DNA from: Oscillospiraceae bacterium
Lineage (GTDB): Bacteria > Bacillota_A > Clostridia > Oscillospirales > Ruminococcaceae
Direction: 5' to 3'
Length of the DNA stretch: 9,190 nucleotides
Assembly: GCA_900766795.1 (NCBI GenBank)
Contig: CAAFWX010000209.1
Span: 1 to 9,190, forward strand
The position numbers were made by a program, and so were the translations under genes. The notes under the pieces were generated by a model that was given only the letters and a program-made list of their open reading frames with translations, did not search any database and was not told the origin of the DNA. Below, in pieces: positions 699-6,773 of the stretch (position 1 is its first letter; the number at the start of each line of letters is the position of its first letter).

Positions 699-706
699 GA
701 GGAGGG
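699..706 (+). promoter_or_regulatory. Ribosome binding site deciding the GGDEF gene start
   Basis: GAGGAGGG is a near-perfect Shine-Dalgarno sequence. It overlaps the possible GTG start at 706 and lies 5 bases before the ATG at 712, so the ATG is the correct start. Confidence 0.8.
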
Positions 707-711
707 TGCCG

Positions 712-2664
712 ATGGTGGAAAAAACAAGAAAATGTATCGGAGTCATTGTCGGCAAACCGACAAGGCGCCACCAGGCAGAGCTTCTCAAGGGAATATACAG
801 CGCCGCTTTCGCCAATGATATGAACGTTGCGGTTTTCGGGACGAGCATTGCGCGAATTGACAAGGAGACCCGCTTAGGCGAGGAGAACATCTACTCTCTC
901 ATCAACTACGAGAAGCTTAGCGGTGTGCTTTATCTGAAAGACACCATTCATTTTGACGACATCGAAAGCACTATAACCGAGCCGCTTTTAAAGGCTCACC
1001 GCGAGCTTGGAATGCCCGCTGTCACCATAGACGCGCAGGTTGAGGGGCTGCCCGCTTTTTTCAGCGATGACTCCGACAACGTAAGAATGATGACCGAGCA
1101 TATCATCCAAAAGCACCGCTGCAAGGACATCGCATATCTCACGGGACCCAAAGGTCATCCGCACGCCGAGCGCCGCCTTGCCGTTTTCAGGCAGGTTATG
1201 CGGGAAAACGGGCTGGCAGTTGACGAAAGCCGCGTTTTCTACGGCGACTTCTGGTACGGCTCGGGCGCAGCCTTCACCGAACAGCTTCTCGCTTCCGAAA
1301 AAGGGCTTCCCGAGGCGGTGATATGCGCGAACGCGCCCATGGCGGAGAGCATGTACAAAGCCCTGCTCGAGAGAAATATTCATGCGCCCGCCGACATTCT
1401 TCTTGCAGGATATGACGACACCCTTGAGTACGCCTCGTTCATCTCCTCCGCAATAAGGTGCAGCGAAAGCGTCGGAAAAGCAGCCTGCGAGGGTCTTATC
1501 GCCCTCATAAACGGCGAAAGCCTTCCCGAAAGGCAGGACGTCAGCTGCGGCGTCAAGACAAACTACTCGATAAGCTGCGGGTGTACATTCGCCCATGACA
1601 TCAATCTGCTTTATGCCGCAGGCGCAAAGCCCGACGACGTAAACGACTACTTCTCGGAGTACAACTCCATCGACAGCGCGCTTATCGGCAGCAGCGACTA
1701 CAACGCCATGCTCTGGTCAATCGACTGGTTTACATACTTTTTAAAGGATTTCACCGACCTGCATTTCTGCATGTGCAGCGGCTGGGACGACCCCGCCTCC
1801 TCGGTGGACGAAAGCGTTGTACAAACCCGTTACACTCCGCAAATGCAGATGTGCTACCGCCACACCAACAACCCCGACGGTACGGTTGACCGCCAAATCG
1901 GCAGCGGAGAGCTGTTCGACACAAAAGACATGTTCCCGCTTCTGTATTCGGCAGACGGCGACCCCGCGGCATACCTGTTCAGACCGCTTCATTTCAACGA
2001 ACGCTGCTTCGGCTATGCGGTAATCAGCTTTGGAAACAGGCTGCGGGTTCCCGAGGAAATCTTCGACTTCTGGATAAACGACGTGTCCGACGCGCTGGAG
2101 TCGCAGCGCCGCCTGAACAACATGCGCTGGCTGTACGGCGAAATGCAGAAAAACGCCGTCACCGACATGATGACGGGGCTTATGAACCGAAACGGCTTCA
2201 ACATGATGCTTCCGCAGATTATCGCCGAAGCCGGAGAGCAGAACGCCCTCGTGCTTCTCATCATGGCGGACCTTAACAACCTGAAATACATCAACGACAC
2301 ATTCGGGCACCCTGCGGGCGACGAGGCGATAAAGACCGCGGCGGGTGCGCTTTCGAGAACATGGATGGGCGGCGCGACGAGCGAGAAGAACTTCAGAATC
2401 GGCGGCGATGAGTTCGTGAAGCTTGCCGTCGGGCACTTCACCGAAGCGCAGACAGCGGAGTTCAAGCGGGCGCTTAGCGAATACCTTAACAACTACAACG
2501 CCACAGCGGGAAAGCCCTATCCGATATATATGTCGCTCGGCTTTGCGTCAAGCCCCGCAGACAGCGCGGAGATTGAGTCGCTGCTGAATGAAGCGGACGA
2601 GAAGATGTACCGCGACAAAGTCCGCTTGAAAAAAGAAACGGGCTTTGACCACAAAAGAGAATAA
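712..2664 (+). CDS. LacI-type ligand-binding domain fused to GGDEF diguanylate cyclase
   Basis: A 650-residue protein predicted to make cyclic di-GMP from GTP in response to a small ligand. Residues about 6-280 have the fold signature of LacI-family effector domains: a CIGVIVGKP opening strand, the CKDIAYLTG segment, a PEAVICAN segment and a late DILLAGYDD. The helix-turn-helix that precedes this domain in repressors is absent, since the binding domain starts almost at residue 1. An SCGC motif (288-291) closes it. Residues about 300-470 form an unassigned, possibly GAF-like region containing PLHFNERCFGYAVISFG. The GGDEF domain spans about 478-645: DMMTGLMNR, metal-binding D520, guanine-contacting N528 and D537, and an intact GGDEF at 564-568, so the enzyme looks active. 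The RxxD inhibitory site is not present at its usual position. No signal peptide or membrane segment is seen, so it should be cytosolic. The ligand, perhaps a sugar, is unknown. Confidence 0.9.
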   Translation: MVEKTRKCIGVIVGKPTRRHQAELLKGIYSAAFANDMNVAVFGTSIARIDKETRLGEENIYSLINYEKLSGVLYLKDTIHFDDIESTITEPLLKAHRELGMPAVTIDAQVEGLPAFFSDDSDNVRMMTEHIIQKHRCKDIAYLTGPKGHPHAERRLAVFRQVMRENGLAVDESRVFYGDFWYGSGAAFTEQLLASEKGLPEAVICANAPMAESMYKALLERNIHAPADILLAGYDDTLEYASFISSAIRCSESVGKAACEGLIALINGESLPERQDVSCGVKTNYSISCGCTFAHDINLLYAAGAKPDDVNDYFSEYNSIDSALIGSSDYNAMLWSIDWFTYFLKDFTDLHFCMCSGWDDPASSVDESVVQTRYTPQMQMCYRHTNNPDGTVDRQIGSGELFDTKDMFPLLYSADGDPAAYLFRPLHFNERCFGYAVISFGNRLRVPEEIFDFWINDVSDALESQRRLNNMRWLYGEMQKNAVTDMMTGLMNRNGFNMMLPQIIAEAGEQNALVLLIMADLNNLKYINDTFGHPAGDEAIKTAAGALSRTWMGGATSEKNFRIGGDEFVKLAVGHFTEAQTAEFKRALSEYLNNYNATAGKPYPIYMSLGFASSPADSAEIESLLNEADEKMYRDKVRLKKETGFDHKRE

Positions 2665-2752: not shown

Positions 2753-3490
2753 ATGTCTGAAATGCCATTAAATCCCTTTGACGACGCAGAGGAGATTGCG
2801 AAAAAATCCATGGTGCTGTTTTTCCTCATCGACTGCTCGGGCAGCATGAGCGGAAGCAAAATCGGAACGGTAAACGCCGTTATGGAGGAGCTTATCCCTG
2901 AGCTTCGCGGAATCGGCGGCGCGGACGCCGACATCAAAATTGCCGTTCTCACATTCTCGGGCGGCTGCGCGTGGATGTACAACGAGCCGATTTCGGTGGA
3001 CGAGTTTGAGTGGGAGCCGATTGACGCGGAAAACGTGACCGACCTCGGAAGCGCTTTCACCGAGCTTTCCGCAAAGCTCTCCAGAAACGAGTTCATGAAG
3101 TCGCCCAGCCTTTCTTTTGCGCCCGTTATGATTCTCATGTCCGACGGCTACCCCACGGACAACTTTGAGAAAGGACTTGACGAGCTTAAAAAGAACCGCT
3201 GGTATGCCGCAGGAATCAAAGCGGCGGTTGCTATCGGCGAGGACGCGGATTTTGATATCCTCGCCCGCTTCACGGGAAGCGAGGACAGCGTTGTTACCGC
3301 GCACAACGGCGAGGCGCTCGCAAAGCTGATAAAGTTCGTCGCCGTAACCTCCTCACAGATAGGAAGCCGCTCCATGCGCCTTGCCGAAACCGAGGAGGAC
3401 TTCCGCACCAAGCAGGAGTCCGCCGCAGAGCAGATTCGCGAGTATGCGGAAAGCGACGAAATCAACGTTGATATCGAGGCAGGCTGGTAA
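2753..3490 (+). CDS. TerY-like von Willebrand factor A domain protein
   Basis: A 245-residue soluble protein with one vWA domain, the metal-dependent protein-interaction fold. The metal site (MIDAS) is complete by eye: D27-C-S29-G-S31 after a hydrophobic strand, T96 in the VTDLGSAF segment, and D131 in LMSDGYPTD. This arrangement, the LMSDGYPTD segment and the later AAVAIGEDADFDILARF segment resemble TerY, the vWA protein of tellurium-resistance-type clusters. The last 50 residues are charged and probably form a helical tail. A strong AGGAGG (2740-2745) lies 7 bases before the ATG. The stop codon shares one base with the start of the next gene, a PP2C phosphatase. In published comparative analyses of Ter systems, TerY, a PP2C phosphatase and a kinase form the TerY-P triad; here only the first two are visible. 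A role as scaffold for phosphatase substrates is inference. Whether it has anything to do with tellurite is unknown. Confidence 0.85.
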   Translation: MSEMPLNPFDDAEEIAKKSMVLFFLIDCSGSMSGSKIGTVNAVMEELIPELRGIGGADADIKIAVLTFSGGCAWMYNEPISVDEFEWEPIDAENVTDLGSAFTELSAKLSRNEFMKSPSLSFAPVMILMSDGYPTDNFEKGLDELKKNRWYAAGIKAAVAIGEDADFDILARFTGSEDSVVTAHNGEALAKLIKFVAVTSSQIGSRSMRLAETEEDFRTKQESAAEQIREYAESDEINVDIEAGW

Positions 3491-4386
3491 TGTCCTTTAA
3501 AGGCTACGCAGTTTCTGTCAGGGGCGCCTCCCACGAGGAAGTCGGCGGAGTGTGCCAGGACAGCGCCCGCGTCTATATCTCCGAAAAACTGGCGGTTGCC
3601 GCTCTGTCGGACGGTCACGGGAGCGAAAAGCACTTTAGAAGCGCCGCGGGAAGCGAGATGGCAACGCGCGTCGCTATCCGCTCAATATGCGATTTTGCGG
3701 AGCGCAACGGCGGGCTGGACAGGCTTTTTGCCGCAGAGGAGGCTGCCGTGCCTGCGGGCGGGTTTGCCATGAGAATGCCGCTGGCGCTTTCGGGCACTAC
3801 CACCGGCAGCAAGGCAGGCTCTCCCGAAAATGCCGCACGGCGAATTGCCGCAAACATCATCTGCGGGTGGAACAACGAAATCAACACCCACCTGAACTAT
3901 TCCCCGCTGAACGACTCCGAGCGCGAAATCTGCTCCAAACATAACGGAATCGCCAACGAAATCATGTACGGCGCGACGCTTATTGTGGCGGCAATGACGC
4001 CGACGTGCTGCTTCGGGCTTCAGATAGGCGACGGAAGCTTTGTCGCCGACGAGGGCAGCGGCTGCTTTTCGCCCATGCCCGAGGACGCCAAGCTTATGGG
4101 AAATCTCACAACCTCCCTGTGCGACAGCGACGCTATCGGAAGCTTCCGATGGTTTTTCCGCGAGGGCTGTTTCGATGGGATAATGCTCTCAAGCGACGGG
4201 CTGATAAATTCCTTTCGCTGCGAGGAGGATTTTCTGAGCTTTGGAGGAAGAGTGCTCTGCGCTGTCGAAGACGAGCGCACCTCGCACCTGCCCGAGCACC
4301 TTCGCACGCGCTCGCACAACGGAAGCCGCGACGATATTTCCATCGCGGCAATCATCAAAGAACAAGAAAACACCCGAAAGGATTAA
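3490..4386 (+). CDS. PP2C-type serine/threonine phosphatase
   Basis: A 298-residue cytosolic protein predicted to remove phosphate from Ser/Thr residues using two metal ions. Expected PP2C motifs are visible in order: QD (D24), SDGHG (D41, G42), the helix segment AGSEMATR, IGDG (D181), LSSDGL (D236) and SRDDISIAAII (D281/D282). All of the main metal-ligand aspartates therefore appear present. A poorly conserved insert at about residues 80-115, rich in Gly and Ala, is atypical and may be a lid or linker. The gene starts at the TAATG overlap with the vWA gene, so the two are probably translationally coupled and made in similar amounts. Within the TerY-P type of module, this enzyme would reverse a partner kinase, but no kinase lies in this window. 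Catalytic activity is inferred from the motifs; the substrate is unknown. Confidence 0.88.
   Translation: MSFKGYAVSVRGASHEEVGGVCQDSARVYISEKLAVAALSDGHGSEKHFRSAAGSEMATRVAIRSICDFAERNGGLDRLFAAEEAAVPAGGFAMRMPLALSGTTTGSKAGSPENAARRIAANIICGWNNEINTHLNYSPLNDSEREICSKHNGIANEIMYGATLIVAAMTPTCCFGLQIGDGSFVADEGSGCFSPMPEDAKLMGNLTTSLCDSDAIGSFRWFFREGCFDGIMLSSDGLINSFRCEEDFLSFGGRVLCAVEDERTSHLPEHLRTRSHNGSRDDISIAAIIKEQENTRKD
4377..4382 (+). promoter_or_regulatory. Ribosome binding site deciding the first SseB gene start
   Basis: AAAGGA lies 8 bases before the ATG at 4391 and overlaps the end of the phosphatase gene. It supports starting the SseB protein there, not at the in-frame ATG at 4241 deep inside the phosphatase gene. 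Confidence 0.65.
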
Positions 4387-4390
4387 CATA

Positions 4391-5185
4391 ATGAAAATGC
4401 TTGAACCCAATGGCGTTATAGAAGAAAATCTCAGAGCGGAGAAGCTTCTCGAACAGCTGAAAACCATTCCTAAGGAGCAGTTCTCCGCGCACATGAATCA
4501 GCTTGCGCAGGAGCTTGCTATGAACGTGCGCTTCATCTGCGCCGTAAGATATCTTGACGAAAATCCCGTAAACGGCGCTCCGTCAAACGGAAGCAAGGTG
4601 GAGTTTGCGATGATTGCCGATGCAAAGGGCAACAGCTACTACCCCGCTTTCACAAGCATGAAGGAGTTCGGCAAGTGGGAGCCGATGGCGAAAACCGACC
4701 CCCAAACCATCACCGTAACCTTCAGCGACCTTGCGCGAATGATTCTGGGACAGAGCGGCGCGGCAGGCTTTGTTGTAAACCCGTTCAGCGACAACCTGCT
4801 TATCAACAAGGAAGCCGTCAAGAGATGGAACGAAATCCTGCAATACAGAACAAAGGGCTACGCCGAGCGCAAGCTAACCTCCGAGTCGGAGATTTCCTTC
4901 TCGGAGTATGAGGCTATTCCCCTCTCGCTTATAAGCGCGCTTAAAACGGCAGCCGACAAGAGCGGCGGGGTGAACGCAATGTGGCTTCGCCCGATGACGG
5001 TTGACGGAGAGAAGTCCCACGCGCTCATCGTCGACTACGCCGACAACAGTATGCAGGTAACAACCGCCCTCGGAAACGCCGCAAAGGAATTTATCGGCGA
5101 AATGAACCTCAACATCTTTAACGTCAAGGACGGAATCGGACAGGCTGCAACGCAGAACATCGAGCCGTTCTATAAAGCGGAATAA
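4391..5185 (+). CDS. SseB family protein, first paralogue
   Basis: A 264-residue soluble protein of the SseB family (named after the E. coli enhanced serine sensitivity protein), whose biochemical role is not established. The SseB N-terminal domain is marked by SYYPAFTSMKEFGKW (from about residue 82) and GFVVNPFSDNLLI (NPF at 130-132). The C-terminal SseB-type half follows: PLSLISALKTAADKSGGVNAMWLRPM, a HALIVDYADN strand, and an FY near the end. The first 45 residues are charged and helical. The start at ATG 4391 is chosen because of the upstream AAAGGA; an ATG at 4397 is a less likely alternative, and an upstream in-frame extension from 4241 would overlap the phosphatase by about 145 bases. 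It sits 4 bases after the phosphatase stop and 35 bases before a paralogue. Being last in a vWA/PP2C operon suggests that it could be a client or adaptor of that module, which is inference. Confidence 0.85.
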   Translation: MKMLEPNGVIEENLRAEKLLEQLKTIPKEQFSAHMNQLAQELAMNVRFICAVRYLDENPVNGAPSNGSKVEFAMIADAKGNSYYPAFTSMKEFGKWEPMAKTDPQTITVTFSDLARMILGQSGAAGFVVNPFSDNLLINKEAVKRWNEILQYRTKGYAERKLTSESEISFSEYEAIPLSLISALKTAADKSGGVNAMWLRPMTVDGEKSHALIVDYADNSMQVTTALGNAAKEFIGEMNLNIFNVKDGIGQAATQNIEPFYKAE

Positions 5186-5220
5186 TCGTCCGCAAGCCCC
5201 GCAGAGAAAGGAGCACGCCC

Positions 5221-6087
5221 ATGTCCATTGATGTAAACAAGCCCGTGGAGAACCCGAAGCTTTCCGAGCTGCTCAAACAGCGCGCCGAGTGTATCCGTCA
5301 AAACGACGAGGAAGCAAAGGCGAAGCTTGACAGCCTCATGAACCGGATTGCGGATGAGGTGTGCATGAACGCGCATTTTCTCGCGCCCGTAAAGCTTTCC
5401 GAACCGCCGGAAAGAAACGATGACGGAACGGTAACTCTCCAAAAGGATACGACCGTCGGTTTTGTCATGCTCAACGGCAGGGACAACACCAGATGGCACC
5501 CTGCCTTCACCGATTGGAACGAGCTTAGCAAGTGGAAGAATGAGGTTTCGTATGGGGAGCAGCCACAGACGCTTATTCTCAGCTTCGACGATTTTTCGGG
5601 AATGATTGGCGGCAACACAGCAGTAAAAGGTCTTGTCATAAATCCGTTCAGCGACAACATTACCCTCACGCGCGAGGTGCTTGCCTCATGGGCCCAAACG
5701 AAAAAGCAGATTCTTGCCGCCCCCAAGACTGAATCGCACATCGTGCGCGGCGGCGTGGATATTCTCAAAAAGGACACGCGCGTGCGTATAGGCGACCCCG
5801 CCGAGTATCCGCAAGAGCTTACGGAAGCGCTGAAAAGCCACGCAAAGACCGAGCGGAAGATAAAGCGCATGTGGCTGCGTCAGGTGCAGTTTGAGGGAAA
5901 GCAGCCCGAGTATTGCCTTATTGTTGAGCACAAGGGCGAGGACAGGGAGATTTTCGACGCGCTCGGCGGCGCGGCACTGTGTTTGCTTAACCAAACACAG
6001 ATGTGCGTTGTGAACGCCGAAAGCGAGTTCGGAGTTATGGCGAGCAAGGGCACAAAGCCGTTCTATAAATCCGCTCTGTTCGGATAA
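5221..6087 (+). CDS. SseB family protein, second paralogue
   Basis: A 288-residue soluble protein with the same build as the gene before it. Shared landmarks are a charged N-terminal helix with KLSELLKQRAE, a VCMNAHFLAPV strand (matching AMNVRFICAV in the first copy), WHPAFTDWNELSKW (HPAFT from residue 93), GLVINPFSDNITL (NPF at 141-143), and the C-terminal RMWLRQVQFEGKQPEYCLIVEHKG with a final KPFYK. The two copies keep motif order and spacing but differ at most positions, so the duplication is old. This copy has a longer linker (about residues 160-195) between the two SseB halves. AAAGGAG at 5207-5213 lies 7 bases before the ATG. It is the last gene of the vWA/PP2C/SseB/SseB operon, and a repeat-like hairpin region follows. 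Function is unknown; a Ser/Thr phosphatase operon makes regulated phosphorylation a testable idea. Confidence 0.85.
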   Translation: MSIDVNKPVENPKLSELLKQRAECIRQNDEEAKAKLDSLMNRIADEVCMNAHFLAPVKLSEPPERNDDGTVTLQKDTTVGFVMLNGRDNTRWHPAFTDWNELSKWKNEVSYGEQPQTLILSFDDFSGMIGGNTAVKGLVINPFSDNITLTREVLASWAQTKKQILAAPKTESHIVRGGVDILKKDTRVRIGDPAEYPQELTEALKSHAKTERKIKRMWLRQVQFEGKQPEYCLIVEHKGEDREIFDALGGAALCLLNQTQMCVVNAESEFGVMASKGTKPFYKSALFG

Positions 6088-6255: not shown

Positions 6256-6284
6256 TTGACAATTGCGAAGAAATCAACTATAAT
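6256..6284 (+). promoter_or_regulatory. Perfect consensus sigma-A promoter for the receiver gene
   Basis: TTGACA (6256-6261) and TATAAT (6279-6284) are both exact consensus hexamers, separated by the ideal 17 bases. Transcription would start near 6291. The promoter lies inside the upstream in-frame extension of the receiver reading frame, so the protein cannot start at the TTG at 6237. Strong, largely unregulated transcription is expected. Confidence 0.9.
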
Positions 6285-6323: not shown

Positions 6324-6773
6324 ATGGCAGACAGGAATAAACTGCTTATCGTTGACGATTTCGAGTTCAATCGTCTTATGCTCAGCGACACTTTCAGCGA
6401 CCGCGACATCATCGAGGCAGAGAACGGCAAGCGTGCAATAGAAGAATTTGAGCTTCACAAAAACGAGCTGTGCGCTGTTCTTCTGGACATCATGATGCCC
6501 GTCATGGACGGCTTCGGCGTGCTGGAATACCTTGTGGAGAAAAAATACATAGAGGACGTACCCGTATTCATCATAAGCGCGGACACCTCCGACAAATCCC
6601 TGTCACGCGCCTATGACCTGGGCGCCGCCGACGTAATCGCAAAGCCCTTCAATATCCGCTTCGTCCGCAGAAGAATCAACAACATCATCGAGCTGTACGA
6701 CCAGCGCCGCCATCTGCGCAGCGTTGTCAGCGCTCAGAACAAGATTCTTGAGCAGCAGGGCGCAAAGAAATAA
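6324..6773 (+). CDS. Stand-alone response-regulator receiver protein
   Basis: A 149-residue single-domain CheY-like protein, expected to be phosphorylated on aspartate by a histidine kinase. All receiver landmarks are visible: acidic pair D11-D12, phospho-acceptor D55 in LLDIMMPVMDG, S85 in FIISAD, and K107-P108 in AKPF. The start at ATG 6324 is set by GGGGGAGAG just upstream and by the promoter at 6256-6284. After the receiver there is only a charged, helical tail (about residues 112-149, RRHLRSVVSAQNKILEQQ). Such a tail usually leads into a GGDEF, EAL or HD-GYP output domain in Clostridia proteins, but here the frame stops and is followed at once by a terminator, so no output-domain remnant remains. 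It might act by binding a partner, or be a phosphate sink. No histidine kinase is in the window. A link to the nearby diguanylate cyclase is speculative. Confidence 0.9.
   Translation: MADRNKLLIVDDFEFNRLMLSDTFSDRDIIEAENGKRAIEEFELHKNELCAVLLDIMMPVMDGFGVLEYLVEKKYIEDVPVFIISADTSDKSLSRAYDLGAADVIAKPFNIRFVRRRINNIIELYDQRRHLRSVVSAQNKILEQQGAKK

Follow-up and report, generated by a model that had tools for sequence, protein, structure and literature searches.

A TerY-like vWA–PP2C operon with SseB-domain proteins as a putative half of a dispersed TerY-P phosphorylation triad in uncultured Oscillospiraceae

A 9,190-nucleotide (nt) stretch of DNA from an uncultured Oscillospiraceae bacterium (GenBank assembly GCA_900766795.1, contig CAAFWX010000209.1), hereafter the window, carries four consecutive genes for a TerY-like von Willebrand A protein (vWA), a PP2C-family phosphatase and two SseB-domain proteins, SseB-1 and SseB-2 (Table 1). 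We propose, as a reading evenly balanced between right and wrong, that the window holds half of a TerY-P phosphorylation triad whose genes are dispersed in an uncultured Oscillospiraceae clade, with SseB as a variable client-binding adaptor. The close relatives of the window have two unlinked clusters, vWA-PP2C-(SseB) and TerY_C-kinase, and the long two-domain SseB of this clade is confined to the vWA-PP2C half. According to parts of PMC11090510, a TerY-P triad consists of a TerY-like vWA, a PP2C and a Ser/Thr kinase with a C-terminal zinc ribbon or OB fold. Triads of this kind are regarded as phosphorylation switches, and one form has antiphage activity (parts of PMC11090510 and PMC7699616).

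Results

Species genomes were scanned with a 17-row vWA alignment, and the loci described here are the best 80 of 282 confirmed stretches. The close clade comprised 37 loci (L001–L034, L036, L037 and L077) with a vWA identity of 82–91%; this identity was 66% for L035 and 51–58% for the remaining 42. In these Ruminococcus-type relatives, kinase, vWA and PP2C adjoined in one cluster, and the kinase preceded vWA in 41 of them (L038–L080 less L077, except L078, which was cut there) and also in L035. An earlier note, made from the sequence of the window, had likened the vWA/PP2C pair to TerY-P, and this kinship was supported by the homologous triads and by the kinase of the split clade, which stands beside TerY_C. 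The note had also placed the two SseB proteins where the kinase would be. In linked triads the kinase lay 5′ of vWA, and SseB lay 3′ of PP2C, so SseB does not fill the place of the kinase.

A Pfam scan of ten window genes found no kinase, and there was no triad-kinase match anywhere in the window. The flanking sequence, which was often shorter than its maximum of 8 kb, likewise yielded none at 36 of the 37 close-clade loci, the exception being L010 with a kinase approximately 6 kb 3′ of the vWA locus. Of 33 close-clade genomes, 32 nevertheless encoded a triad-kinase orthologue at another place, and one of these orthologues appears as two pieces, split at a TGA codon (G033:C49:4328-5588). The kinase reported as missing was thus missing from the window but not from the genomes of its relatives, and the triad looks split rather than reduced. 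As far as the relatives tell, the gap is probably a window effect, and the window organism's own kinase is predicted from them.

The kinase cluster of the close clade consisted of a TerY_C zinc protein and the kinase, often with a Sel1-repeat protein. TerY_C (PF15616; E 1.7e-9 in the single copy scanned) was located 5′ of the orphan kinase in 25 of 27 loci by tblastn, and the other two were cut at a contig edge. It was a stand-alone protein adjoining the kinase and unfused to vWA, and no TerY_C domain occurred among the ten scanned window genes. The relatives' kinase contained two CxC pairs towards its C-terminus. Run on five relatives' proteins, PADLOC matched only the two kinases (with models of several kinase-bearing systems), and its models gave zero matches among the four window proteins. 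Separately, the QDLND catalytic Asp motif was replaced by QYLND, HQMSR or QYLDD in the triad kinases of L058, L059 and L063; since the motif is lost, these look like pseudokinases kept in the triad.

SseB followed PP2C at 27 of the 37 close-clade loci and was absent from seven (L015, L016, L017, L021, L025, L026 and L032). Three loci were not judgeable: the sequences of L022 and L077 are cut too soon, and that of L002, which sits closest to the window in the tree, stops 422 bases past PP2C, with no SseB frame in those bases. The linkage claimed in the earlier note therefore held in the close clade (27 of 34 judgeable loci) but not elsewhere (0 of 35 other vWA genomes). Routine separation of the vWA/PP2C pair from SseB, named beforehand as counting against the claim, was not found within the close clade. 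The four-gene arrangement with two SseB genes was particular to the window; none of the 37 loci showed a pair, and relatives carried one SseB or none. Aligned SseBs from 25 relatives spanned both domains. A further search with PF07179 covered 33 close-clade genomes and that of L035 (34 in all). A long SseB frame (260–370 amino acids, aa) occurred only at the vWA locus in all 25 genomes whose locus has SseB, and the seven genomes with an SseB-free locus had short frames (150–175 aa) or none, and no long SseB.

Two kinds of small protein were also observed. Of the 33 close-clade genomes, 29 encoded, away from the vWA locus, a short SseB (150–192 aa; G004:C23:29610-29942, for instance) that, by its length, would comprise the N-terminal domain only. 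In many close-clade loci a protein of 71–92 aa was encoded 3′ of SseB; that of L008 (10520–10777) contained several Cys and had zero Pfam matches.

Linkage outside the clade was sought in two samples. In the family sample of 297 genomes (vWA cut-off E 1e-30; SseB cut-off E 0.001, partial matches counted), vWA relatives were found in 40 genomes and SseB in 79, and the two were neighbours only in five close-clade genomes. None of the other 35 vWA genomes had SseB within 16 kb on the vWA contig. Outside the clade, 31 SseB places were examined, 27 of which were re-recognised as SseB genes under crude gene calling; the models built here labelled no gene as vWA, PP2C or triad kinase up to five genes away. 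In the phylum sample of 398 genomes (vWA E 1e-25, SseB E 1e-12), vWA was found in three genomes and SseB in eight, with neighbours only in one close-clade genome (G008); with three vWA genomes the power of this sample is low. The vWA-PP2C-SseB linkage was thus seen only in the close clade and is not general. No description of it was found in the literature, as covered by open-licence papers.

All four window proteins exceeded the curated Pfam cut-offs, both SseB genes carrying SseB and SseB_C; the four genes, their coordinates, their family names and the one-base vWA/PP2C overlap stood as first read. The gaps between consecutive genes were −1, 4 and 35 nt, with the PP2C start sharing one base with the vWA stop and SseB-1 starting at the ATG at 4391. 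The eight Asp and Gly positions considered in PP2C were the same in all 39 aligned rows. So were the five residues (D27, S29, S31, T96 and D131) of the metal ion-dependent adhesion site (MIDAS) of vWA, the pattern of which is given in parts of PMC11090510. A protein search with vWA returned 1219 homologues, the top non-self match being 96% identical. SseB-1 matched itself alone in a search that requires shared 5-residue words, which shows its divergence, and it was 28% identical to SseB-2. The AlphaFold model of SseB-2 had a pLDDT of 86.0 and a pTM of 0.59.

The divergence of the parts was compared in 16 genomes with all five of them. Mean pairwise identity fell from 91.7% (vWA) through 89.3% (TerY_C), 84.2% (kinase) and 73.9% (PP2C) to 41.8% (SseB). 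SseB is by a wide margin the most divergent of the five. The pairwise identities of SseB and vWA correlated (rho 0.69), as expected from shared inheritance.

In the vWA-PP2C tree, from which L034 and L037 were left out for their broken frames and L077 for want of a PP2C sequence, the SseB-free loci fell into one clade of eight (support 99/97) that includes L022, whose downstream region is unseen. With L002 and L022 left out of the count, two changes suffice to explain the presence and absence of SseB, on a tree whose outgroup branches are long. Of the 27 close-clade SseBs, 25 entered one alignment (without L014 and L029), 22 a further one (also without L023, L031 and L037) and 21 the SseB tree, joined there by 20 from elsewhere (E under 1e-30, of 27 recognised). 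SseBs at vWA loci, including both window copies, were split from the 20 others (97/84) by a short dividing branch. The closest row to SseB-2 by path was L141, an SseB from elsewhere, whose genome (G100) yielded no relatives of vWA at E 1e-30.

In the SseB-free loci L015, L016 and L032, PP2C was followed by a protein of approximately 1290 aa resembling RNA polymerase beta by eye. In the other four (L017, L021, L025 and L026), a response regulator 87–89% identical to that of the window stood directly 3′ of PP2C. Since the same regulator follows SseB-2 in the window, vWA-PP2C-SseB-regulator may be the older order, from which SseB was later deleted.

The response regulator of the window starts 239 nt 3′ of SseB-2 and is preceded by a promoter-like site, a consensus match only (4 such sites against 2.4 expected in shuffles). 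This site suggests that the operon would end at SseB-2, and the response regulator is probably its own transcription unit. Nuclease, helicase and Ter families were not found by Pfam among the ten scanned genes. Copies 50% identical to the GGDEF protein of the window stood 5′ of vWA in L003 and L077. The same protein matched, at approximately 30% identity, tandem genes of approximately 305 aa located 3′ of the Ruminococcus-type triads in L047 (five genes) and L054 (seven genes).

Table 1. Coordinates of the window features.
Feature	Position	Strand	Evidence or location
TerY-like von Willebrand A protein (vWA), 245 aa	2753..3490	+	PF00092 E 3.6e-9
PP2C-family phosphatase, 298 aa	3490..4386	+	PF13672 (PP2C_2) E 8.8e-29
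SseB-1, two-domain SseB protein, 264 aa	4391..5185	+	PF07179 5.5e-17, PF14581 (SseB_C) 3.5e-13
SseB-2, two-domain SseB protein, 288 aa	5221..6087	+	PF14581 9.5e-21, PF07179 4.2e-17
Promoter-like site	6256..6284	+	12/12 consensus matches, 5′ of response regulator
Stand-alone receiver-domain response regulator	6327..6773	+	PF00072 3.5e-18
GGDEF protein with LacI-type periplasmic-binding domain	706-2664		88 nt 5′ of vWA

Discussion

In the mechanism that we propose, the MIDAS-bearing vWA would act as a scaffold that binds peptides. One shared client would be phosphorylated by the kinase together with TerY_C and dephosphorylated by PP2C. SseB may be a non-catalytic, diversifying and chaperone-like adaptor that binds clients and would pick what the PP2C/vWA arm acts on.

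The system resembles the TerY-P triad in its vWA with intact MIDAS and adjoining PP2C and, in the relatives, in a kinase with two C-terminal CxC pairs accompanied by a TerY_C protein. It differs in that the kinase and TerY_C are unlinked from vWA-PP2C, TerY_C stands alone and SseB is added.

The name SseB is also borne by a Salmonella type III translocon protein, which we take to be different from the SseB-domain family. In section 3.8 of PMC9503650, SseB and vWA domains are proposed as peptide-binding chaperones in ADP-ribosylglycohydrolase (ARG-centred) systems, and the SseB references in that paper point to the translocon protein. One class of these systems, as presented there, is like ours in having a vWA and an SseB protein as predicted chaperone-like partners. 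Unlike them, the window has no ADP-ribosylglycohydrolase among its ten Pfam-scanned genes, its phosphatase is a PP2C, and the kinase of its relatives is in trans. E. coli SseB (enhanced serine sensitivity protein) is a further point of comparison, and an E. coli control genome matched PF07179. The E. coli SseB model NF008624 weakly matched SseB-2, but at 26.5 bits this was far under the equivalog cut-off of 295 bits, and SseB-1 had no match. The context differs as well, as Yersinia sseB is located 3′ of isc and pepB (part of PMC4055776).

A client-binding role is not the only one that SseB could have. It could instead be a phospho-substrate or effector, which the kinase would phosphorylate in trans and PP2C reset, and which would then act elsewhere. 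SseB shares its operon with the phosphatase, S201 and T117 were kept in at least 90% of 24 SseB rows, and its high divergence fits an output protein. The SseB-free clade retains vWA, PP2C and kinase, however, so SseB cannot be the sole output, and we consider this role unlikely.

We are similarly doubtful that SseB is a passenger, held beside its neighbours by vertical inheritance in one clade without shared function. The confinement of the linkage to the close clade, the other genes that adjoin SseB elsewhere and the mere two changes on the tree would all fit such a history. Yet the remaining neighbour genes vary among close-clade loci, as judged by eye, while SseB stays, and the gap between PP2C and SseB was at most 95 nt in 23 of 27 loci (259 nt in L024 and 525 nt in L034; the gaps of L031 and L037 are start-codon artefacts). 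The lack of a long SseB in every genome with an SseB-free locus also speaks against a passenger.

That the kinase was truly lost and PP2C serves another cellular Ser/Thr kinase is highly improbable: the window has no detectable kinase and Pkinase matches occurred in all 40 genomes searched, the best of them lying apart from the triad kinase in those genomes that were scanned for both, but nearly all close-clade genomes hold the dedicated kinase, and the copy examined (L010) retains the glycine loop, the Lys and two Asp motifs.

The proposal of a dispersed triad with SseB as adaptor can be taken a step further, though only as a long shot. In a two-locus TerY-P switch with a fixed core of vWA, kinase and TerY_C, SseB might be the subunit that diversifies and recognises the target. 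SseB, and to a lesser degree PP2C, would then evolve fast enough to track a changing target, for example a phage- or rival-derived protein, and the window would hold two adjacent specificities.

The data suggest that the TerY-P triad is dispersed yet retained in this clade. Operon-based finders that require all three triad genes together would miss such a triad. The function of SseB-domain proteins is unsettled, and the linkage of the long SseB to vWA and PP2C in this clade, with the corresponding kinase recognised at a locus of its own, gives concrete tests of binding and phosphorylation.

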